Source of the DNA: an uncultured Bacteroidia bacterium
GTDB lineage: Bacteria > Bacteroidota > Bacteroidia > Bacteroidales > F082
Reading direction: 5' to 3'
NCBI GenBank assembly: GCA_902801625.1
Contig: CADCJI010000002.1
Span: 1-64,000, forward strand
DNA: 64,000 nt
Positions 5,925-49,047 of this stretch are shown piece after piece. The position numbers and the translations under genes were made by a program. Position 1 is the first letter of the stretch. Every line of letters begins with the position of its first letter. Under the pieces are notes generated by a model. It saw nothing but the letters and a program-made list of their open reading frames with translations, was not told the DNA's origin and ran no database searches.

Positions 5925-6521
5925 TCATTTTTTGTTGCTGTCGATAATAAGATTACCTTCCCTGTCGATATGCTTCCGAAGGAACTTTCTCGCATTGAAC
6001 ACCCTGGTCTTAACAGTGTTGATATTGTTCGATTCCAGTTCGCCCGATTCGTTCAGTATCTTCGCAATCTCCTTGAGGGAATACCCGGACATTTGCATTT
6101 CAAACGCCTTGCGGTGTATCTGAGGCATGAGGTCGAGGGCCACTGACAGGCCGTCGTGGTAGCCGCCGTCACAATATTCCATTTCGCAAGGCTTGTCTTC
6201 ACAGTCCGTGCCGTAAACAGTTTCGATGTCCTGTAATGAATTGCCGTATTGCATCCGCCTCTTGTTTACGCCGAACACATAGCGCTTCGTGACGACATGT
6301 AGCCACGTCTTCAGGTCGCGGCTCTCGTCGTATGTCTCGATATAGATGAAAAGGTTGAGCAGGACATCGTTGAAGTTTTCGTCGACATCCTGCCTCGATG
6401 CCGTGTAACGCTCACACAATTTCCTCACGAAATCGTAGTTGGGCATCACATACTTGTCGAAAAGTTCTTTCTTTTTGTCGGAATTTGGCCTGACGGGGTT
6501 CTCACGGCCACATTTGTCCAT
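5925..6521 (-). CDS. RNA polymerase sigma factor, sigma-70/ECF-like
   Basis: 198 residues. An N-terminal region-2-like segment (about residues 30-90: YDFVRKLCERYTASRQDVDE, then LKTWLHVVTKRYV) is joined to a region-4-like helix-turn-helix (about 130-180, YSLKEIAKILNESG then NTVKTRVFNARKFLRKHI). This is the size and order of ECF-type sigma factors. It would redirect host RNA polymerase to phage promoters, perhaps for the late genes that follow in the same direction. A -7-like element lies just upstream. Confidence 0.8.
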   Translation of the reverse strand: MDKCGRENPVRPNSDKKKELFDKYVMPNYDFVRKLCERYTASRQDVDENFNDVLLNLFIYIETYDESRDLKTWLHVVTKRYVFGVNKRRMQYGNSLQDIETVYGTDCEDKPCEMEYCDGGYHDGLSVALDLMPQIHRKAFEMQMSGYSLKEIAKILNESGELESNNINTVKTRVFNARKFLRKHIDREGNLIIDSNKK

Positions 6522-17394: not shown

Positions 17395-17508
17395 GCAAGC
17401 CGCGACCCGTAGTTCGTGTTCGAATTCGAAGATGCGTTGTTCGCATTCGCATAGGCGACACCCGCATTGGCGTTACCGTTGTTGTTCGACCGGGCGAGCA
17501 CACGACCG
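17395..17508 (-). other. DGR template repeat (TR)
   Basis: 114 bp that align without gaps to the VR at 17658-17771 (offset 263). There are 14 mismatches, and at all 14 the TR has A on the minus (coding) strand. In the VR frame the TR encodes runs of Asn codons (AAC), the usual DGR design that yields many residues but no stop codons. Both ends match exactly: GTGTGCTCGCCCGGTCG at the 5' side and the GC-rich GTCGCGGCTTGC at the 3' side, the likely initiation of mutagenic homology. Confidence 0.95.
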
Positions 17509-17623: not shown

Positions 17624-20600
17624 TTACGGCTCCTGCAACACAATATCCCCCCTGAAGGCAAGCCGCGACCCGAAGAGCGTGTTCGAATACGAAGATGCGT
17701 AGGACGCATGCGCACAGGCGACACCCGCATAGGCGCGACCGTCGTTGTACGACCGGGCGAGCACACGACCGCCAGTTGAATAATAGTAGTAGTCGCAATA
17801 TCTCTTCGTTGAGGTTCCAGCAAGCACCGAAGGCACCAGGTCACAGAAGCGTCCATGTCTTACTCGCTTGATGTAACCGCCTGAATCAACCGTACTTCCA
17901 GTAGACGGACAAGTGTTGTACCTTTGCTTTATTTGGTCGCCGTTTCCGTCAAAGTCCATACTGTCAGGGTTGTAGATGGACCACCTGCCGTTCACAGCCG
18001 ATCCGCCTGAAGTCATGGCACCCTTATAGAACGCATCATAACTACTCCTGTTCACACAGCAGTTGTCCATCCATTCCAGATAGCAGCCGAAGAACGATTC
18101 CAAGCCAAGGCACTTGTTGCCGCTTGACAGCCTCAAACCGCTCGGACCATTTGTGTTGCTACTGCCTGTCGAGCTGTTGTTTCCGATTGAGTCGGAATAG
18201 CCTGATGTAAGACCAGAAGTACCATTACCGCACACGGATTGAGAATCAAGCGTGCCATGCACACAGTAGAACAGCAAGGCGACAAACTTCGACATTTCGT
18301 AGTCAACGAGCTGATATCCATCCCCCCTCAATCTCGACACATTCTGGAAGTCCTTCATGGTGAAATTGAGCTTTGACGGAGCGTTTGTCGGATTCCCGTC
18401 GCTGTCATAGGTCCAGGCTGCCGTTGTTGAGGTTCCGTTACCTCTCTTACAGGTCTTTCCTGTAAGCGAACGCAGACGGTAATCAACGACATTGTTGCTC
18501 GAATCAGTGTTGATCCATGCCTGGTACACTCCTATCAAGCACTGCTTATGCTCAACCCAATCAGGCTCAATGGCTTCGATTTCGTCGCTGTCGGTCACAA
18601 CGACAACGCACCTCGCCTCGTTCGCATAAGTCTTGGGAACGGTGAAGAAGAACTCTTTGGCCTCCGGAGGAACGCTCAAGAACAGATAATCGAACTCTGC
18701 TTGCAGGAAATCGAAGTCGTTGTCGGCCACTTCAAGTTTCCATTTGTTGATGATAACGCCGTCAGCATCCGTGAAGCACACACCGTAGTTCGCATTGATA
18801 ATGCCGGGCCAACGCACCTGCTTCATGCCATCGACATTGACCTTGTAAACATTGAGCGCACTGGCATCCATATTGACACTTGTGATAACGCCCTCGTCTT
18901 CAATGTTGCTTTCGTCGACTGTGATGTTGGCAAGGCGAACACCCACACTGGACCCGACAAGCATTGCCGCCGCTGTATCAGCATCGTCAAGGTGATATTT
19001 CACCGTTTGCGAAGCACTGGATTGCGGAGTCTCGTCGAGTGCGCTCCAACAGATGTACTTCTTCTGGTTCTTGAAGTCATTCACACCCTTATAAAAGCAG
19101 TGAGGCAACACCATCATAAGGTCGTTGCTGTTATCAAGCGAATCCGAGTAGTTGTAATCGTCGCCGTTGGCATCCTTCTTATAGTTGCTGTCGCTAATCC
19201 TGACGCCTGTCCATTTGTTCGTTTGAGCGTCCAGATGACCGAAGTACGGCTTCATCTTGTTTCTCACCTTCACTGCATGGCCACTGGCAATATATCCGTC
19301 GCCAAAGGCATCGTTGGCCATACAACCTTCTTCGTTACCGAGTTCCATGTTCCTCACACATGCGGGGCTATCCAGCGTATCATCTATTTCATAGAGGCTA
19401 TATTGGCACTCGATGATGTCAAGATAGCGGAATGTCGCCCTCAATTCGGCCATCTGTTCATCGGTGATGGTTTCCATCAAAGTCACGCTACCAGTAAGGG
19501 CAGGGAATGTGATTTGGTTGCCATACTCGTCAATGCCTCGTTTCCCAAGATATTGCTGGAGGAACGAGTAATGAACCTTGCCGGTGATTCCCTCAACACG
19601 GATATACTGCACATTGGGGCACAACGCAAGTAATTCCTGCCAATCGAGATTAGGACAGGCAGCAAAGATGAATGTGGTCACATTCTGTGTCCCTTGCAGT
19701 GTAAGCCCGTTTCGCTTCAGGTCTGGAAGATGTTTAAGCGCAAGCTGGGTGATTGTCGAAGGCAGAACAAGAGTGCTCAAAGGCGAACCTTCCGGAAGTG
19801 TTACTATCTGGTGGCTTGTTCCTCCGTCAAGAAGCGTCTGCAAGCGACCATGTGCGCTCATGTCAAGCGCAGTGTGAGCATCGTTCGTGCCAGTCGAAGT
19901 TTGACCCGTGAAATCGGCATACTCAATCTTCGATATGCTTCCGAACTGCAACGTGACGCCACCATTGGCGCCGTTGCTTGCATTCATCACAAGTTTTGAA
20001 AGCATGACGCATTTGCTCAGGTCGAGGTTGCCGCGAAGGTGTCCTTGAAGCATCCCTGTGAAATCCAATTCCTTGACACGGCTTGCGCCGCACAATGCAA
20101 TCGGGTCGTTCACAGCCAGAGTGCCATTCACTGGAATGTTGACAATCTCGTTGTTCTCCGCCTCAACTGGTCCGTAACGCCATCCGCCGTTTGCAAGTTT
20201 CCAACCGAAATAGTACAAGTCGCCGCTTTTCAGTGTAATAATGTCATTTGCATCGCTACTGTCACGCACGGTGTAAAGTCCAATATTGTCATCGGTATAT
20301 CCGCCTGCCGCATATCTTGCGTCAAGCAACTGGCCACGGTCTGTGTAGAACGATGTACGGTGTGCCTCACGGTTTCCGGTCATAGTGTAGATGTAGTTCT
20401 GCACATCCATCGTGTCGACATACTTCAACTGCTGGCTCTCGTTGTATTGCCTCTCGCTCCAGTTGCCCATGATGGTCTCGTTGAACATGCGAAGCATATT
20501 TGGAGTCGTCATCACGGCTCTCAGATTGCTTGCGCATTGTTTCAATTCATCTTCAAAGTTGGCCAAAACGAGGCACCACAGCCATGAGTTATGTCCTTCA

Positions 20601-43632: not shown

Positions 43633-44954
43633 CGCCTCCCCGTGAAAAAATTTCCAGGCTCTCCGCGACGGTGGCCATACCGCTTATAATATTCCTCGTC
43701 CGACATGATATTGCGGTCGTCGTCGCCACCTGCGGTTCCGCCGCCACCTCCATTGCCGCCTTCAACCAGGTTGATCTGCTTGCCGACCACAACGCCGAAA
43801 GTCTTCTCAATCTCGTCGGGGCTGACCTCGAATTTGTCGGTGATGAAGTCATACAGTTGGATCTGGTCCTGGTCGCTCATTTCAAGGCGCTTCGCATACT
43901 TGAACACCGTTCCCTTTTCCAGATAACCCATAGCGACAAGACGCGGCAGCACCTCCTCGTTCATCACATTCTCGATGTAGCGACGGTACGACTCCACCCT
44001 GTCCCTGAAGATGTCCTGGTGGGCACGAGTGGCACCCACATACGACATCGTTGCACCGGCCATCGACTCCGAACCGAGGATGAGGTTCGACACGTCGCGG
44101 TCAACCAATTCCATCAGCCCGGTGAAAATCTTCTCCGAGTTCGACATGGTGAAGGTCTTGATGTCCACCTCGTCGTTCAATCCTGTGACGATGACCTTGT
44201 TCTGGGCCGCGCTCGCGATGTCGTTGGCGAGTTTCTTGCGGTCCGACTGCATGGTCGAATCGGTCTTCCCGTGTATGATGGGCTGCCCGTATGTATGACT
44301 AAAATTGACATAGTTGGCCAAGGTGAACTTCTTGGCGAGAATCAACGGAGTGGTGGCAGAGAACAGGCCCAGCGAGCCGCTGTTGACGAGGATGTAGTTG
44401 TTCTCATACTGGCGGTCGTCGAAGTCCCAACCGGGAAGCCAGATGCCCTGCCTGCGAACGATGCGCCTCTGGTCGGGCAGCACATTGCGCCGCTCGATGA
44501 GGTTGATGGTCTTCAGCTTTCCGGTCCATTTGTCGATGTCTGGAAGTATCTCGATGGCGGTGTAGCCATACAGTTTCGCCTCCATGATGCCACGGATCAG
44601 CTTGTCGAACTGCGAGCCTTGCACCTTCTCCGTCTCTTTCACATCCTTGACAAACTTGCCCTTGTCGTTCACGCGGGCCAGCATATATCTCTCGCCTATG
44701 ATTTGCGACTCCAGCGTCTCGATGACGCCCGCAAGGTGCGCGTCCTGCTGCACGCAGGCATCATACAGGTCCATCAGCCTGCCACGGTCGTCCATCACGC
44801 AACCCTGGCCGCCCAGCACGTTCTGCACCGACTTGAAGCGGTTGTAGCGCTCAATCTCGCGCACATACTCCTGTATGGTCTTCTTCGAGGTCCTGAAAAT
44901 GGCCTCCAAAAGGTCTATGTTGAATTTCTCCTTGTCCGTGGTCTCGACTTCCAT
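43629..44954 (-). CDS. Portal protein, DUF935 family
   Basis: 441 residues. Typical DUF935/Mu gp29 features: ETLESQIIGERYMLARVN near 80, the LIERRNVLPDQRRIVRR region, KKFTLANYVNFSHTYGQPII (about 228) and NLILGSESMAGATMSYVGAT (about 293). It forms the dodecameric ring for DNA passage. The C-terminal 40 residues are Gly-rich. It is the first head gene read in this block, preceded by a terminator at 45028-45046. Confidence 0.9.
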   Translation of the reverse strand: MEVETTDKEKFNIDLLEAIFRTSKKTIQEYVREIERYNRFKSVQNVLGGQGCVMDDRGRLMDLYDACVQQDAHLAGVIETLESQIIGERYMLARVNDKGKFVKDVKETEKVQGSQFDKLIRGIMEAKLYGYTAIEILPDIDKWTGKLKTINLIERRNVLPDQRRIVRRQGIWLPGWDFDDRQYENNYILVNSGSLGLFSATTPLILAKKFTLANYVNFSHTYGQPIIHGKTDSTMQSDRKKLANDIASAAQNKVIVTGLNDEVDIKTFTMSNSEKIFTGLMELVDRDVSNLILGSESMAGATMSYVGATRAHQDIFRDRVESYRRYIENVMNEEVLPRLVAMGYLEKGTVFKYAKRLEMSDQDQIQLYDFITDKFEVSPDEIEKTFGVVVGKQINLVEGGNGGGGGTAGGDDDRNIMSDEEYYKRYGHRRGEPGNFFTGRR

Positions 44955-45021
44955 TCAGTTGCGTTTTTCCTTTGAATAGTCCGCCGAGGCTCCAATTGTT
45001 TGCAGAATCATGTCCGCATAC

Positions 45022-45053
45022 AAAAAAAAGCCCTTCAAGGGGGCTTCTTTTTT
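45022..45053 (-). terminator. Bidirectional intrinsic terminator
   Basis: AAGCCCTT pairs with GGGGGCTT around CAA, with T runs on both sides (eight A at 45022-45029 give a minus-strand T run; CTTTTTT follows on plus). It separates the accessory block from the portal gene. Confidence 0.75.
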
Positions 45054-45568
45054 CATTCAATTGAGTAAAGGACGACCGGCGGTCTTGGTGGCGGCGGCGG
45101 TGGCTCCGGCTTGGTCCGTTTGACGAGCCTGACATCCGCCTTGTTGAAGAACCTTGGGCACTGTTCGTCACCTATGCGGTGTTTCTTTGGGATTTTGTTG
45201 TAGGGTTTCCTCTTGCCTTTTTTGTCCTTCTCCGAGTCGGGATTGAACCAGATGCAGTGGTATCGGTCGAGGCAGCCTTTGAAGTCGCAGTCTGTGTTGC
45301 CTTTGCGTCTGGCGTTTATCTTCTTCGCGGTGAGATGGTCCACGAATACGACGTAAGGCATGTCGGGGTGTTCCTCCCTCGCCGCCCATCTTTTATCTTG
45401 GTCCTTTATCATTTCAACATCGTGTACGTTGACGGCGATGCGCTGCGCGGCAATGTAGATGTATTGGTTCGCGCCTGGTTCCGGCCCTACGGTGGCCGTG
45501 AACACCGAACTGTGGCTATACGACCTCCTCAACGAGAAATACACCTTGCTCCCTTCAACCCATTCCAT
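45053..45568 (-). CDS. Hypothetical protein with Pro-rich end
   Basis: 171 residues from MEWVEGSKVYFSLRR, 4 bases after the recombinase stop; an ATG 30 bases earlier would overlap the recombinase. It has Cys residues in NTDCDFKGCLDRYHC (possible metal site), a basic middle and a run of prolines near the C terminus. The stop lies within the terminator. No family recognised. Confidence 0.5.
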   Translation of the reverse strand: MEWVEGSKVYFSLRRSYSHSSVFTATVGPEPGANQYIYIAAQRIAVNVHDVEMIKDQDKRWAAREEHPDMPYVVFVDHLTAKKINARRKGNTDCDFKGCLDRYHCIWFNPDSEKDKKGKRKPYNKIPKKHRIGDEQCPRFFNKADVRLVKRTKPEPPPPPPRPPVVLYSIE

Positions 45569-45572
45569 TGCG

Positions 45573-46181
45573 TCAGAACTTGATGGAGTCGAAGACATTG
45601 CGCACCTCGTCGTCGGTGATGCCGATGTAGGTCATGGTGACACGGATCGTCGAGTGCTTGAAGATGCGGTTGAGAAGGACTATGCTTTCCTCCGTGCGAC
45701 CGAGGCTGTCGTAAACATAGCGTCCGAAAGTCTTCCGGAAGGTGTGTGATGAGAAGTTGCCGATGTTGAGGTTGTACCTTGCCTTGAACTCGCGGAACTT
45801 GAGATTGACGTGCTGCTGTGAGAAATGGTGCGGCTTGTGGTAAACGGCGTGTGCCTTGGCGTGGTTGCTCTCGAAGACCAGGTTGTCCCGGTCAGGGCTG
45901 CCTTGCAGGGCGTAAAGCTCGGCAAGGCGTGCATGTACCGACTCGTTGAAGTTGACCTTGCGTGCCTTGCCGGTCTTCTTCTCGATGACCGTGCATTCGG
46001 CGGCGAGCACATCCTTCCATTTCATCGTGAGGATGTCGGAAATGCGGCATCCGGTGCAGAATCCGAGCCGGGCGTAGGTTTCCCAAAGGTATTCCTTGTC
46101 GTTGTGGAGGCAGGTGAGCAGGCGCTGGTATTCGCCGTATTCGAGCCATTCTGCCGTGGTGAGTTGTCCTTTCTTTGCCAT
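45573..46181 (-). CDS. Tyrosine recombinase (integrase family)
   Basis: 202 residues from MAKKGQLTTAEWL. All catalytic residues are visible: Arg46 in GCRISDI, Lys near 70, HTFR (His146, Arg149), His176 in FKHSTIR and the nucleophile Tyr185 in MTYIG. The DNA-binding arm domain is almost absent, so it is nearly a bare catalytic domain, like invertase- or XerC-type enzymes. The start follows from a consensus promoter at 46214-46243, which lies inside a longer in-frame version. It may integrate the phage, resolve multimers or invert a segment. Confidence 0.85.
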   Translation of the reverse strand: MAKKGQLTTAEWLEYGEYQRLLTCLHNDKEYLWETYARLGFCTGCRISDILTMKWKDVLAAECTVIEKKTGKARKVNFNESVHARLAELYALQGSPDRDNLVFESNHAKAHAVYHKPHHFSQQHVNLKFREFKARYNLNIGNFSSHTFRKTFGRYVYDSLGRTEESIVLLNRIFKHSTIRVTMTYIGITDDEVRNVFDSIKF

Positions 46182-46213
46182 AGTGTTTGCTTTTTGATAT
46201 TCACTTTCGGTGG

Positions 46214-46243
46214 CAAAATTACAAAAGTGAACATTCACGGCAA
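46214..46243 (-). promoter_or_regulatory. Consensus Bacteroidales promoter for the recombinase
   Basis: On the minus strand TTG (46243-46241), then exactly 19 bp, then TAATTTTG (46221-46214). Transcription should start near 46207, 26 bases before the recombinase ATG. Confidence 0.8.
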
Positions 46244-46247
46244 TGAG

Positions 46248-46277
46248 TTGAGTTGGACTTGTTGTCTGCTATTTTTG
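46248..46277 (+). promoter_or_regulatory. Consensus Bacteroidales promoter, divergent
   Basis: TTG (46248-46250), exactly 19 bp, TATTTTTG (46270-46277). It fires to the right, away from the recombinase, with its -33 element 4 bases from that of the opposite promoter. It would make the short plus-strand RNA 46285-46480. Confidence 0.8.
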
Positions 46278-46353
46278 CAAGTTGCTGATTCACAGATTGA
46301 TTTTGTTTTTGAAACAAGCAAGCGAACCAACCTCCACATCTGTTGCATATACC

Positions 46354-46443
46354 ATGAAATTCAAGATAACAGACATCAATAGTTTTGAACGATTACCTTA
46401 TACTGCAATGGTACTTTCCGAGTGCGGCTGTGCCTCGGACTGA
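46354..46443 (+). CDS. Possible micro-protein, 29 residues
   Basis: MKFKITDINSFERLPYTAMV and nine more residues, ending with a CGC motif. It lies within the candidate small RNA and is the only reading frame on it. It could be the real product of the plus-strand promoter, or incidental. No family recognised. Confidence 0.3.
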   Translation: MKFKITDINSFERLPYTAMVLSECGCASD

Positions 46444-46475
46444 CGGTGTGCAGCCACCGCTTTTATTTATTTTAC
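46444..46475 (+). terminator. Intrinsic terminator of the plus-strand small RNA
   Basis: CGGTG TGCAGC CACCG forms a short hairpin followed by CTTTTATTTATTTT. It ends the transcript from the promoter at 46248-46277, just before the oppositely read gene. Confidence 0.65.
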
Positions 46476-46484
46476 TATTATCGT

Positions 46485-47618
46485 TCACTTGTCGAGTTCG
46501 AGCTTTATCCCGGCCATCTTGCACTTGTAGCCTATCTTCTCCTTCAGACCGAAGTACGACCAGTTGCGGAGGACGAGGCTGTCGCCTTCGGCGTTCTGTT
46601 CCTTGGCTTCTTCCTCGCGATGGGTCTGGTTCATCAGCACAATGCGACCGCAACGGTGCTTCAAGGCAAGGTCGACGAGCATACGGCTGTAGGTGTGGAG
46701 CTTGGTGGCGACGTAGTTCTTCTCCTTTTCGTGCCAGCGGTCGATGGCCTGGCATTTTTTCTTCCTGCCCTTGCCACCGCTGTTGTAAAGGTTCTCCACC
46801 TGGCACCGGCGCACAGCCTCCTGTATCTGGCGGCGGCGGTAGTTGAACTCCTCCTTGGTGCCTATCTCGAACCACTTGTAGCCGCTGTCGTATTCCTTGG
46901 CGGCCCTCACGTCGCAGGTGCAAATGACGGGGTTCATCACACCGAGGTAGGCATACATCGTCTTCCCCTCGTCAAGTTCCACTTCCTTCTTCGGGATGTC
47001 GACGCACAGCAGCAGGAAAATCTTGTTCCTGTCGAATTGCAGCGACGAGGTACACATCTTGTATTCGCCGCCGACCACCCTCTCTACGATGATGCGGTTG
47101 CCGCTGCGGTCTCTCCCGAACTTCATCTGGAACGGCACGCCCATCAGGGTGAAGAAACAGCCCTGTCGTTTCTCGCCCTCGCCGTTTTCGTATTCGGAAA
47201 AGCGGAGGTTGAGGAAGCGGTCGGCCTTGAACGGCACCGGCATGTTGGCCTTGAAGGAACGCAACGAGCGGTTCCACATACCGTGCTTGCGGTCGTCCTG
47301 GTAGGTTTTCTGCACGTTCTGAAGGACGCACGACACCATTCCCATGTCGGCCTTGCCCTTGAACGCCTCGCTTGCAGCGACGTATGGCGCGTTCTGCTTG
47401 GTGGCCTTGTTGCCCTTGGCGCCAATGAACACAATCCTTTCCCTGTCCTCGTCGCTGAGGTAGGGCATGGTGTTGTCGAGCGCGAAGAGATGGCTCACTC
47501 CCATGTTGGCCACCTTCACGGCGATGTCGCGGTTGGCGTAAAGTTTCTCGTAGTACGCCCTACGGAGTTCCTTGTCCGCCTCGCAGACAAAGACCTCAAT
47601 CTTGCGGGTGATAACCAT
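46485..47618 (-). CDS. Nuclease-dead TnpB/Cas12-like protein
   Basis: 377 residues. The N-terminal half (MVITRKIEVFVCEADKEL; LRSFKANMPVPF) resembles the wedge/REC part of compact TnpB/Cas12 proteins. The C-terminal third follows the RuvC fold: LGVMNPVI (225-232), the basic RRRQIQEAVRR helix, SGGKGRKKKCQAIDRWHEKE, HTYSRMLVDLALKH, GRIVLMNQ (325-331) and YKCKMAGIKL. The RuvC-I Asp is Tyr224, the RuvC-II Glu is Met329, and the chain stops before the zinc ribbon and RuvC-III Asp. It should bind RNA and DNA but not cut. A CRISPR-like array lies upstream. Confidence 0.8.
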   Translation of the reverse strand: MVITRKIEVFVCEADKELRRAYYEKLYANRDIAVKVANMGVSHLFALDNTMPYLSDEDRERIVFIGAKGNKATKQNAPYVAASEAFKGKADMGMVSCVLQNVQKTYQDDRKHGMWNRSLRSFKANMPVPFKADRFLNLRFSEYENGEGEKRQGCFFTLMGVPFQMKFGRDRSGNRIIVERVVGGEYKMCTSSLQFDRNKIFLLLCVDIPKKEVELDEGKTMYAYLGVMNPVICTCDVRAAKEYDSGYKWFEIGTKEEFNYRRRQIQEAVRRCQVENLYNSGGKGRKKKCQAIDRWHEKEKNYVATKLHTYSRMLVDLALKHRCGRIVLMNQTHREEEAKEQNAEGDSLVLRNWSYFGLKEKIGYKCKMAGIKLELDK

Positions 47619-47681
47619 ATCGTTTCATTTATGCTGTTTGTTACTGTTTCTTTTCCGCCTTGCCAAGCTGCAAGACATCGT

Positions 47682-47887
47682 GCTGTAATACCTTTTTTGT
47701 GGTGCGCATCCAGTATGTAAGGAAGAAGCTCCAGTTCCTGCTGTAAGCACCTTGTGTTTTCCATCCGATGACGGCGAAGGGGTGGTGCTGTAAACACCTT
47801 ACATTTCATCGGTGCCAACAGCGATACACACTTTCTCGATCTGCATGACATGCTGTAAACACATTACATTTCATCGGTGCCAACAGC
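47682..47887 (-). CRISPR. CRISPR-like mini-array, four repeats (two degenerate)
   Basis: Two 36-bp repeats at 47787-47822 and 47852-47887 differ at one base and enclose a 29-bp spacer (period 65). Degenerate copies begin at 47740 and 47682 and keep mainly the segment next to the spacer on the minus strand (AAGGTGCTTACAGC and AAGGTATTACAGC against AAGGTGTTTACAGC). Each repeat has inverted ends, GCTGT and ACAGC. Folding favours minus-strand RNA: GGCACC/GGTGTT pairs there with G-U, but gives A-C mismatches on the plus strand. The effector-like gene lies downstream in that direction. Confidence 0.62.
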
Positions 47888-47984
47888 GTGAAGGTTGTAG
47901 GTGCCTGCACCACAGTATGTCAAAGTGCTTCGCGAGTGGCGCTTGCCCTCGTGCTGAGGCCGTACAGCCGGCCCTTGGCGGTTT
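47888..47984 (-). other. Leader-side spacer region of the array
   Basis: About 97 bases between the array and the gene at 47985. No consensus promoter is seen on the minus strand, so array and effector may be read from the early operon. It contains a small GGTG/CACC hairpin (47901-47912). Confidence 0.35.
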
Positions 47985-48221
47985 TCAAGCCTCCGCCTTG
48001 GCTTTTTCCATCGCATCGGCCTCCTGCCTCTTCAGTTCGTATTTTGCCGCGTCTATCAGCAGTCGGCTTCGGTTGTTCATCTGTTTGAGGATGGACACGG
48101 CGAGTTTGCCGCGTTCAATCTCTATTTGCTGGGCCTCGTTGCGCTCTATGAGCGAAGCCATGTATGCAACAGCATCCTTGCCTTGTATCGTGGTGTCGAG
48201 TCCGAATTTGTTGTTTTCCAT
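47985..48221 (-). CDS. Hypothetical helical protein, 78 residues
   Basis: Starts MENNKFGLDTTIQGKDAVAY. Predicted almost wholly helical with a heptad-like stretch (IERNEAQQIEIERGKLAVSI), ending in AEADAMEKAKAEA-type repeats. It is the last early gene before the array. No family recognised. Confidence 0.6.
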   Translation of the reverse strand: MENNKFGLDTTIQGKDAVAYMASLIERNEAQQIEIERGKLAVSILKQMNNRSRLLIDAAKYELKRQEADAMEKAKAEA

Positions 48222-48232
48222 TGTCGTGGTAG

Positions 48233-48529
48233 TTATGTGTTTTTTGATTTCTTATCTGACTGATATTCTTCAATCCAGTACGCCTCGCAGCTCATGAGTT
48301 TTCCCTTGGTGTTGCGGATGTGGTCGCGGAATCCGATTCGATGGCATCCTTCAAGGAACTTCTGCATGTTTGCCTTGTCTCGCGTTATCAAATCCAGTTC
48401 GGCCTTGGTGTAAATGCCGTCGTCACCTTTGGCTTTCGGAGGATATGCCTCGATTATCTTCTTGGCCGCTATCAGTGCTCCGAGGTAGTAGGCGCCGTAG
48501 TATGCTGTTGTCTGCTCGAATTTTCCCAT
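48233..48529 (-). CDS. Hypothetical protein, 98 residues
   Basis: Starts MGKFEQTTAYYGAYYLGALI; an amphipathic N-terminal helix, then a basic region with single Cys residues. It overlaps the previous gene by 58 bases in another frame, a large overlap for this region, so the boundaries of one of the two could be off. Function unknown. Confidence 0.5.
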   Translation of the reverse strand: MGKFEQTTAYYGAYYLGALIAAKKIIEAYPPKAKGDDGIYTKAELDLITRDKANMQKFLEGCHRIGFRDHIRNTKGKLMSCEAYWIEEYQSDKKSKNT

Positions 48530-48741
48530 CTGTGAGATACTATGTATTTTCCGTTGAGTGTGTCGCCCACATTGATCTTGCCTTGGCAGAACAAGTCGTT
48601 GAGGATGTTGCGCATTTCCCTGTCGAGGGCCTTCGACAGTTCGTCGATGGTGACGTGCGTCGGCTCCACCTTGCCCAGCTTTGCGCTGTGGATCTCGTCG
48701 AGTTTCGACATGATGTAGTCTTGGAAGGTCTTGTCAGCCAT
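48472..48741 (-). CDS. Hypothetical protein, 89 residues
   Basis: Starts MADKTFQDYIMSKLDEIHSA; the first 70 residues look ordered (a winged-helix-like pattern with LSKALDREMRNILNDLFCQG and a beta hairpin GKINVGDTLNGKYIV). The last 17 residues are low-complexity where it overlaps the next gene. It may be a small DNA-binding protein. Confidence 0.55.
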   Translation of the reverse strand: MADKTFQDYIMSKLDEIHSAKLGKVEPTHVTIDELSKALDREMRNILNDLFCQGKINVGDTLNGKYIVSHRWENSSRQQHTTAPTTSEH

Positions 48742-48744
48742 TTC

Positions 48745-49047
48745 TTACATCATTATTTTGTCGAGTCCGAATTTCTTGTTGTGCTGTTCCACCATGTCGT
48801 GCCAGCGTTTGGTGTAGAAGTCGGTGAGTTCCTTGATTTTAGGGTCCGTTTGGATTTGGAGTTCAATGGCACCTGTTTTTCCGTTGGCTTCATTTGGCAC
48901 AAACAACACGATTCGTGGGGAGCTGCTGTATATTTTCATGAGGGCTTTTGCAAGTTGGTCGCCTTCGGTCCGGATGGTTTCCATGATTTGCTTGCGTTCT
49001 ATTTCCTCTTCATAGGGGTCAATGATTGTTGGTCTGTTTGGATCCAT
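48745..49047 (-). CDS. Hypothetical protein, 100 residues
   Basis: Starts MDPNRPTIIDPYEEEIERKQ. Mixed helix and strand, charged, no Cys. It sits 3 bases upstream of the winged-helix-like gene, in the same operon. Not recognised. Confidence 0.55.
   Translation of the reverse strand: MDPNRPTIIDPYEEEIERKQIMETIRTEGDQLAKALMKIYSSSPRIVLFVPNEANGKTGAIELQIQTDPKIKELTDFYTKRWHDMVEQHNKKFGLDKIMM

Follow-up and report, generated by a model that had tools for sequence, protein, structure and literature searches.

In the opening 64,000 nt (hereafter the window) of a contig of 134,872 bp from an uncultured Bacteroidia bacterium (GenBank CADCJI010000002.1) lies a phage-borne gene, dcas12f, whose 377-aa product is a Cas12f protein lacking catalytic residues, and which is accompanied by an array of clustered regularly interspaced short palindromic repeats (CRISPR) and by units resembling trans-activating CRISPR RNA (tracrRNA). 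Phage proteins of this kind, together with their tracrRNA-like units and arrays, probably act as RNA-guided repressors of island and defense-linked genes. As the catalytic residues have been lost and guides match island and defense-linked genes, the phage is likely to block its targets rather than cut them; indeed, the combination of a dead effector, matched guide RNAs, motif-flanked sites close to the starts of genes and the absence of a linked sigma factor is best accommodated by repression. The phage origin of the locus, claimed in a first-pass annotation of the window, is borne out by genes for a terminase large subunit, a minor tail protein and a Mu-type portal (Pfam) and for a head protease (PHROGs), and positions 64001-104000 of the contig appear by eye to be densely packed with phage-like genes.

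In alignments with active Cas12f, Tyr224 of dcas12f occupies the RuvC-I Asp site and Met329 the RuvC-II Glu site, and the chain stops where an intact-looking Cas12f from a targeted island (locus L091) enters its TNB zinc-ribbon domain (L091 residues 389-457), both as first described. Because the RuvC Asp-Glu-Asp triad and the zinc ribbon of type V-F Cas12f nucleases are missing, dcas12f is not filed as an active V-F nuclease and is predicted from its residues to be nuclease-dead. All rows in an alignment of 29 close homologs carry Y or F at position 224 and none carries Glu at 329; among aligned phage genes, Y/F at 224 is combined with M/L/I at 329 in nine of nine. Of eight relatives compared, three allowed the ratio of nonsynonymous to synonymous substitution rates (dN/dS) to be calculated, with values of 0.10-0.12; for the remaining five, dS was saturated. 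Mis-assembly, which close homologs with an intact triad would have signaled, is unlikely because homologs are many (1011 counted, the best 120 of 1011 at 77-100% identity), have Y or F at 224 and no Glu at 329 wherever they were aligned, and show low dN/dS.

Homology to Cas12f spans the full length of the protein, in keeping with its initial description as a miniature Cas12/TnpB-like protein, and a predicted model built from an input alignment of 49 diverse rows appears to adopt the RuvC/wedge-type Cas12f fold for which the first-pass annotation had proposed to look; an earlier model from 29 close homologs was poor (mean predicted local distance difference test score 54.2) and was discarded. 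Cas12f chains rank above TnpB in similarity to dcas12f, and the TnpB model NF040570 gives 74.7 of 100 bits, under its cut-off. The protein is a member of the Cas12f (V-F) lineage, with dCas12f 9n9c as its nearest relative. TldR, Cas12k and Cas12m, originally named as nuclease-inactive precedents, were ruled out as nearest family by sequence and structure comparison, and dcas12f lies outside the Cas12m (V-M) lineage. TldR proteins are closest to TnpB, employ an omega-RNA with one guide and are not known to have a CRISPR array, a description that does not suit dcas12f, for which TnpB is not nearest and beside which an array is found.

The array that had been reported beside the gene is indeed present, comprising two 36-nt repeats that are 97% alike, one copy at 61%, and a fourth degenerate copy recognized by eye. 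Four copies of the repeat end TTACAGCA are found in the window, all of them on the minus strand within the array; with 1.6 such 8-mers expected by chance, the 8-mer alone proves little. Across dcas12f loci, arrays commonly advance in 66-nt steps, with 36-nt repeats and guides of ~30 nt. The tracrRNA-like units were absent from the first-pass list. By rule, 42 were found in dcas12f loci, with at least one in 16 of the 17 viral loci; the other locus (L021) breaks off inside the gene. In window unit 1, a GGCC/GGCC stem encloses the loop GGCTGTAC, which is the anti-repeat, and a second hairpin is formed by CGAGG..CCACTCG. Throughout the 32 distinct arrayed units, the anti-repeat in the loop of hairpin 1 is the reverse complement of the last six bases of the repeat in 28, with a single G-U difference in the remaining four; permutation expects 13.0. 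Unit 2 is followed by one copy of TGCAAC, with one mismatch to its loop.

Alignment of 36 units revealed two hairpins with 98.1% of cells paired, a value that falls to 42-49% when hairpin partners are slid by 1-3 columns; as the same sequences served to draw the structure, and a paired stem 1 was among the criteria for picking units, cell pairing alone is favored by the selection, helix 2 being outside the picking rule. Double-change cells number 129 versus 36.7 in shuffles and stand out despite the picking bias, which indicates that the tracr hairpins covary. A covariance model, in whose training set both window units are included, recovers these two and detects a third, arrayless unit at contig positions 83217-83274 on the plus strand (L055:19217-19274). 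An early phage gene carries this third unit in its leader, with TACAGC following within the first codons; the unit is perhaps a single-guide form or a means of autoregulation. The model also recovers a unit beside the intact-looking L091 Cas12f (E 3.2e-9) and, weakly, beside 9n9c-type genes, which ties these lineages together. A scan of 44900-49000 with Rfam gave a single match (E 0.89), taken as chance. Two further arrangements were observed: nearly identical compact units with one guide and no array, located just before dcas12f (L011:7890-8000 and L014:7890-8000) and reminiscent of a natural single-guide RNA, and one dcas12f surrounded by six tracr units (L022:3358-5891), with three different anti-repeat loops on the contig. 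That the system is a decaying remnant without function would accord with the degeneration of two of the four window repeats and with a unit 2 that hardly has an array; however, low dN/dS, covarying RNA and diverse guides with non-random targets make this scarcely probable.

Guide 1 of the window matches the DUF6261 gene (PF19775, 1.3e-9) in one of 99 same-genus genomes, with 30 of 32 nt identical (the 29-nt guide with one mismatch; E 7.8e-7). A type I restriction subunit with HSDR domains starts 187 nt after this gene on the same strand; further along the locus, genes were assigned by sequence to the remaining hsd subunits, an AAA_13 protein and an AbiH-domain protein. At a lax limit the same search yielded matches in all 99 genomes, nearly all with E 0.01-5, which were read as noise. 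Candidate targets of two other window guides were rejected. The first 18 nt of guide 4 and the preceding base match exactly in four same-genus genomes, and three inspected sites fall in one conserved gene, whose sequence suggests a penicillin-binding protein and in which C precedes the guide match; this was judged a chance hit of a conserved stretch. Likewise, a 17-nt match beginning 22 nt into guide 3, found in at least eight genomes, of which one was inspected, was attributed to chance.

For a broader search, 143 candidate guides were parsed by script, of which 72 were hand-chosen as well-formed and 71 excluded as short, array-tail, duplicate-like or doubtful; the addition of two (the L011 single guide and that of unit 2) brought the set to 74. 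Against 398 genomes from the genus of Prevotella sp. P2-180, a cultured carrier of dcas12f, these guides gave 25 matches in 20 genomes at E<=1e-3; P2-180 is one of the 20, and its three matches fall in the arrays it carries. Reversed guides matched in none of 398 genomes; an empty control answer alone shows nothing, and it acquires meaning from the forward matches in an equal-size draw from the same genus. Among 399 genomes of the family, eight had guide matches at E<=2e-3, and seven of the 399 hold matches outside arrays, one being a genome and site already seen in the 398-genome draw. The tentative guide of unit 2 had no target in either search. Altogether, 11 guides have chromosomal protospacers, at 29 sites. 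Almost every match among the dcas12f loci themselves came from a shared spacer, a repeat or homologous coding sequence, and one guide match between related phages (L012 in L013) was not counted as a target. The window array stretch gave nothing better than E 0.1 against phages and plasmids. The sole self-match is that of an L024 guide, 29 of whose 30 nt match the chromosome of its own assembly.

Counting each guide once by its commonest triplet (a tie for L020g being scored as TCA), the triplet preceding the protospacer has T first in 10/11, C or T second in 11/11, and A or G third in 10/11, from which a 5'-T-Y-R flank is predicted. For nine of the 11 guides, the site falls within 100 nt of the start of an ATG frame of 90 codons or more, either upstream of the frame or inside it, compared with 30.6% of random sites in the same loci. 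Seven guides (L007d, L007e, L007i, L008a, L019a, L020a and L020g) match islands with related genes, which encode a 94-aa protein resembling single-stranded DNA-binding protein (SSB; weak DUF3127 match in one), a 166-aa protein and 670-820-aa proteins in various combinations, with lytic-type genes (DUF5675 or M15 peptidase) in some. The L007d island has three genes in common with the L008a islands, at 58, 34 and 25%; the L019a island is linked only by 25-26% matches of the long protein, and the L020g island only by the SSB-like gene. One island family is matched independently by guides of four phages. Other targets are a gene adjoining an HTH_17 gene, both part of an element that encodes integrase and primase-type domains (L020d), a 102-aa gene of no assigned kind (L012e), and, in the same assembly as the dcas12f gene, a gene start between a tyrosine-recombinase-like gene and a DnaC-like loader (L024a), this last target being presumably DUF6291-like.

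One targeted island (L091:3119-4794) itself carries the Cas12f with intact-looking catalytic motifs, accompanied by an array of three repeats and by a homologous tracr unit; thus, RNA-guided systems may stand on both sides of the phage-island conflict. The presence of this island system, whose tracr unit is recognized by the phage-derived model, is also what might be expected if dCas12f were a decoy that soaks up the guide RNAs of active host or island Cas12f, a role proposed, according to a review (PMC11656645), for a phage Cas9 whose RuvC domain is dead. Yet a decoy would need neither varied guides of its own nor a shared target flank, and the tracr loops follow the phage's own repeats, so that we consider such a role quite improbable.

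In the proposed mechanism of repression, the tracr-array units would be transcribed and processed into guide RNAs, the dCas12f-guide complex would bind DNA at a 5'-T-Y-R flank without cutting, and the bound complex would block transcription of the matched gene. With its few guides, each phage would suppress genes for replication or control in resident islands, which are perhaps phage satellites or integrative elements of another kind; for guide 1 of the window, the suppressed gene would be the DUF6261 gene just upstream of the type I restriction gene. As no cut would be made, the host chromosome of the prophage may itself be matched by a guide, as seen once (L024). We are evenly divided on a wider proposal, namely that Bacteroidales phages run a cleavage-free, multi-guide CRISPR interference (CRISPRi) program against satellite-like islands, whose replication and control genes it would silence, and against defense-linked genes. 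Such a program would combine dead Cas12f with a small protein and with several tracr-array units whose anti-repeats have co-evolved, and would be safe for the lysogen because dead Cas12f cannot cut.

Several points weigh against repression as proposed. Only one of five window guides has a convincing target, the four guides upstream of the gene found nothing better than E 0.25 in the window's own assembly, 63 of the 74 guides had no target in the genomes searched, and none of the 74 matched any of 50,697 phage records at E<=0.05. The 5'-T-Y-R flank derives from the same 11 guides, with no second set, and has exceptions (GCC and TCC for L008a, CCA at two of seven sites for L020a, and CAG at one of two for L020g); some sites are imperfect, with a 1-nt gap for L008a and either a 1-nt gap or four mismatches for L007i. 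The P value for proximity to gene starts (7e-4) applies to a 100-nt criterion chosen after the sites had been inspected. Protospacers occupy both strands relative to genes, and therefore no strand rule backs a roadblock. A common transcript for the DUF6261 gene and hsdR is inferred across the 187-nt gap, and the L024 self-match hinges on correct metagenome binning. Finally, the islands are likely to be mobile, judging by integrase, helicase-loader and lytic-type genes in some, and their identity as phage satellites is a guess.

A further reading concerns the relatives of dcas12f. Viral contigs yielded 17 loci, and GTDB genomes yielded four when an alignment served as query and none with a single sequence; among 60 related genomes, the gene occurs only in the window's own. 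A maximum-likelihood tree of 38 rows unites the 24 phage-type rows (100/100) and, apart from them, the 13 rows of the 9n9c type (100/99); the phage form thereby appears as a sister clade of the 9n9c type and not as a branch within it. The tree has a single active outgroup on a long branch, and no claim is therefore made as to whether nuclease activity was lost once or twice. When the 9n9c-type protein was searched against 395 genomes of the class, the window and five other genomes matched. In all of these five, dcas12f has on its upstream side an extracytoplasmic function (ECF)-type sigma gene in the same orientation (L107 has an 82-aa frame in the interval); this sigma passes the TIGR02937 cut-off in three of five, is sub-cut-off in L109, and in L108 has only TIGR02985 plus another sub-cut-off match.

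dCas12f of the sister clade drives sigma-guided transcription. Phage dCas12f might likewise recruit a sigma factor, of phage or host, and start transcription at guide-chosen sites, and 5/11 guides do lie 21-78 nt upstream of a start codon. The window phage also encodes an ECF-type sigma factor near the terminase gene (5925-6521, minus strand); however, this gene is 40 kb from dcas12f and has no homolog in the 13 virus records with phage-form dcas12f, and its product bears little resemblance to the one linked sister-clade sigma compared with it (22% over 67 aa), on which grounds it was ruled out as a linked partner. Searches with it gave weak hits in three of four host genomes. None of the 13 records, many of which are fragments, contains a sigma over the ECF cut-off, and one has three sub-threshold hits. 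Moreover, targets also fall inside genes and on either strand, and there is no evident gain in turning on the genes of rivals. Activation is an unlikely alternative to repression, entertained on account of the sigma linkage of the sister clade and of the sites located 21-78 nt ahead of genes.

The features of the locus are collected in Table 1. Along the gene direction, the 78-aa open reading frame (ORF) is followed by a tracr-like unit, four repeat-guide steps and dcas12f, 3' of which come the second tracr-like unit and a small tyrosine recombinase (45573-46238); the portal gene is the near-side neighbor of the locus. The 78-aa ORF, which has no Pfam or PHROG family and only a 0.061 match far under the cut-off in NCBIfam, is conserved beside tracr units in 14 of 19 dcas12f loci tested. 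Its homologs (75-80 aa) occur in 15 viral loci, all 15 with adjoining tracr-array units; 14 of these were already known to contain dcas12f and tracr units, and the fifteenth has a tracr unit but no dcas12f in its 6 kb. Neighbors in the 17 phage-type loci include genes for replication and recombination, such as DnaB, SSB, RusA, RecT/ERF and methylases, and the 25 of 57 neighbor families listed comprise neither Cas1/Cas2 adaptation genes nor Tn7- or Mu-type transposition genes. For Cas1/Cas2, the scan covered the 134 plus-strand ORFs among 184 ORFs of at least 120 aa.

Table 1. Features of the dcas12f locus (window coordinates).
Feature	Position	Strand	Remark
78-aa coiled-coil-like small ORF	47985..48221	minus	directly upstream of unit 1
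tracrRNA-like unit 1	47918..47977	minus	covariance model 55.3 bits, E 8.4e-16
CRISPR repeat 1, 36 nt, ending TTTACAGC	47852..47887	minus	
Guide (spacer) 1, 29 nt	47823..47851	minus	matches DUF6261 gene in same-genus genome
CRISPR repeat 2, 36 nt	47787..47822	minus	
Guide 2, ~20 nt, 3' end uncertain	47767..47786	minus	no target found
Degenerate repeat 3, 3' half retained	47740..47766	minus	
Guide 3, ~28 nt, end uncertain	47712..47739	minus	no convincing target
Degenerate repeat 4	47682..47711	minus	
Guide 4, ~27 nt, end uncertain	47655..47681	minus	19-nt matches of start judged chance
dcas12f, 377-aa Cas12f without catalytic residues	46485..47618	minus	stop codon 46485-46487
tracrRNA-like unit 2, downstream of dcas12f	46404..46463	minus	covariance model 53.2 bits, E 4.3e-15
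Tentative repeat end TGCAAC and guide of unit 2	46313..46347	minus	single degenerate copy

The adjoining recombinase and the Mu-like portal might call to mind a helper of RNA-guided transposition or integration, similar to Cas12k or to the V-F CRISPR-associated transposons of Mu-type elements mentioned in the review PMC11656645. The recombinase, however, is not a conserved neighbor (not present in two or more of 19 loci), no transposase is found among the 25 of 57 neighbor families listed, and guides fall at gene starts inside islands, leaving this role most improbable in comparison with repression. Elsewhere, the window contains a textbook diversity-generating retroelement, with a reverse transcriptase (PF00078; 15823-17166, minus strand) and a 114-nt template repeat with an 88%-identical variable repeat (17395-17508 and 17658-17771). 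The variable repeat precedes the end of a 2149-aa reading frame by 34 nt, and all 14 repeat differences are at template adenines.

A phage clade of apparently nuclease-dead Cas12f thus exists beside the sigma-linked one and has kept tracr-like units and arrays. If the proposed function is correct, binding-only CRISPR interference would be a standing phage weapon against islands and defense-linked genes in Bacteroidota, and the 377-aa protein would be a very small natural CRISPRi protein; with guides, target sites and a predicted flank at hand, the mechanism is directly testable. In searches of open-access literature, no title or abstract dealt with the phage clade, its tracr-array units, the flank or the island targets, nor with sigma-linked dCas12f; subscription journals were mostly outside this coverage, and absence from print is not implied.

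Among known proteins, the dCas12f of Flagellimonas and other Bacteroidota (PDB 9n9c, 9n9m, 9n9o and 9n9q) has the fold predicted for the phage protein, a similar length and the same truncation before the zinc ribbon, with 34% identity between 9n9c and phage dcas12f in a structure alignment. The RuvC-I Asp is replaced by Ser in 9n9c and by Tyr or Phe in the phage form, whereas Glu is replaced by Met in both. The 9n9c type resides on bacterial genome contigs, with its sigma gene in five of five loci and a weakly similar tracr-like unit beside the gene in two of five (E 1.4e-5 and 4.4e-5); the phage form, in contrast, is phage-borne, with multi-guide arrays and no linked sigma. Active Cas12f (9nzo, 8hr5 and that of island L091) is homologous over the whole phage protein, and the L091 system resembles the phage form in its tracr-like unit and array with a 66-nt period; unlike these enzymes, phage dcas12f has lost the RuvC triad and zinc ribbon, and no cleavage is expected of it.

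Phage-borne precedents are also available. In a single sentence, Al-Shayeb et al. (2020; PMC7162821) describe a phage 'dCas14' with one catalytic residue missing, for which repression was suggested and whose spacer targets the host glycyl-tRNA synthetase. Phage dcas12f is similar in being a phage-borne Cas14/Cas12f deprived of catalytic residues with a spacer against a host gene, but 'dCas14' is described as lacking one residue, compared with Asp, Glu and the zinc ribbon here. Prophage TldR is likewise a nuclease-dead, phage-borne, RNA-guided repressor of host genes (PMC13418256, citing Wiegand 2024); it derives from TnpB, whereas phage dcas12f is nearest to Cas12f and is associated with tracr units and arrays. 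According to PMC11656645, Cas12m (V-M) and plasmid type IV systems block transcription of rival mobile elements without cleavage, and the cleavage-free blocking proposed for dcas12f would resemble theirs. The same source describes the CRISPR of phage ICP1, which is directed at PLE islands; like it, the dcas12f system would aim a phage CRISPR at a host-borne antiphage island, although ICP1 possesses a fully functional type I-F system with an adaptation module, and the dcas12f locus consists of a single, presumably dead effector, with no adaptation genes among the neighbor families listed.
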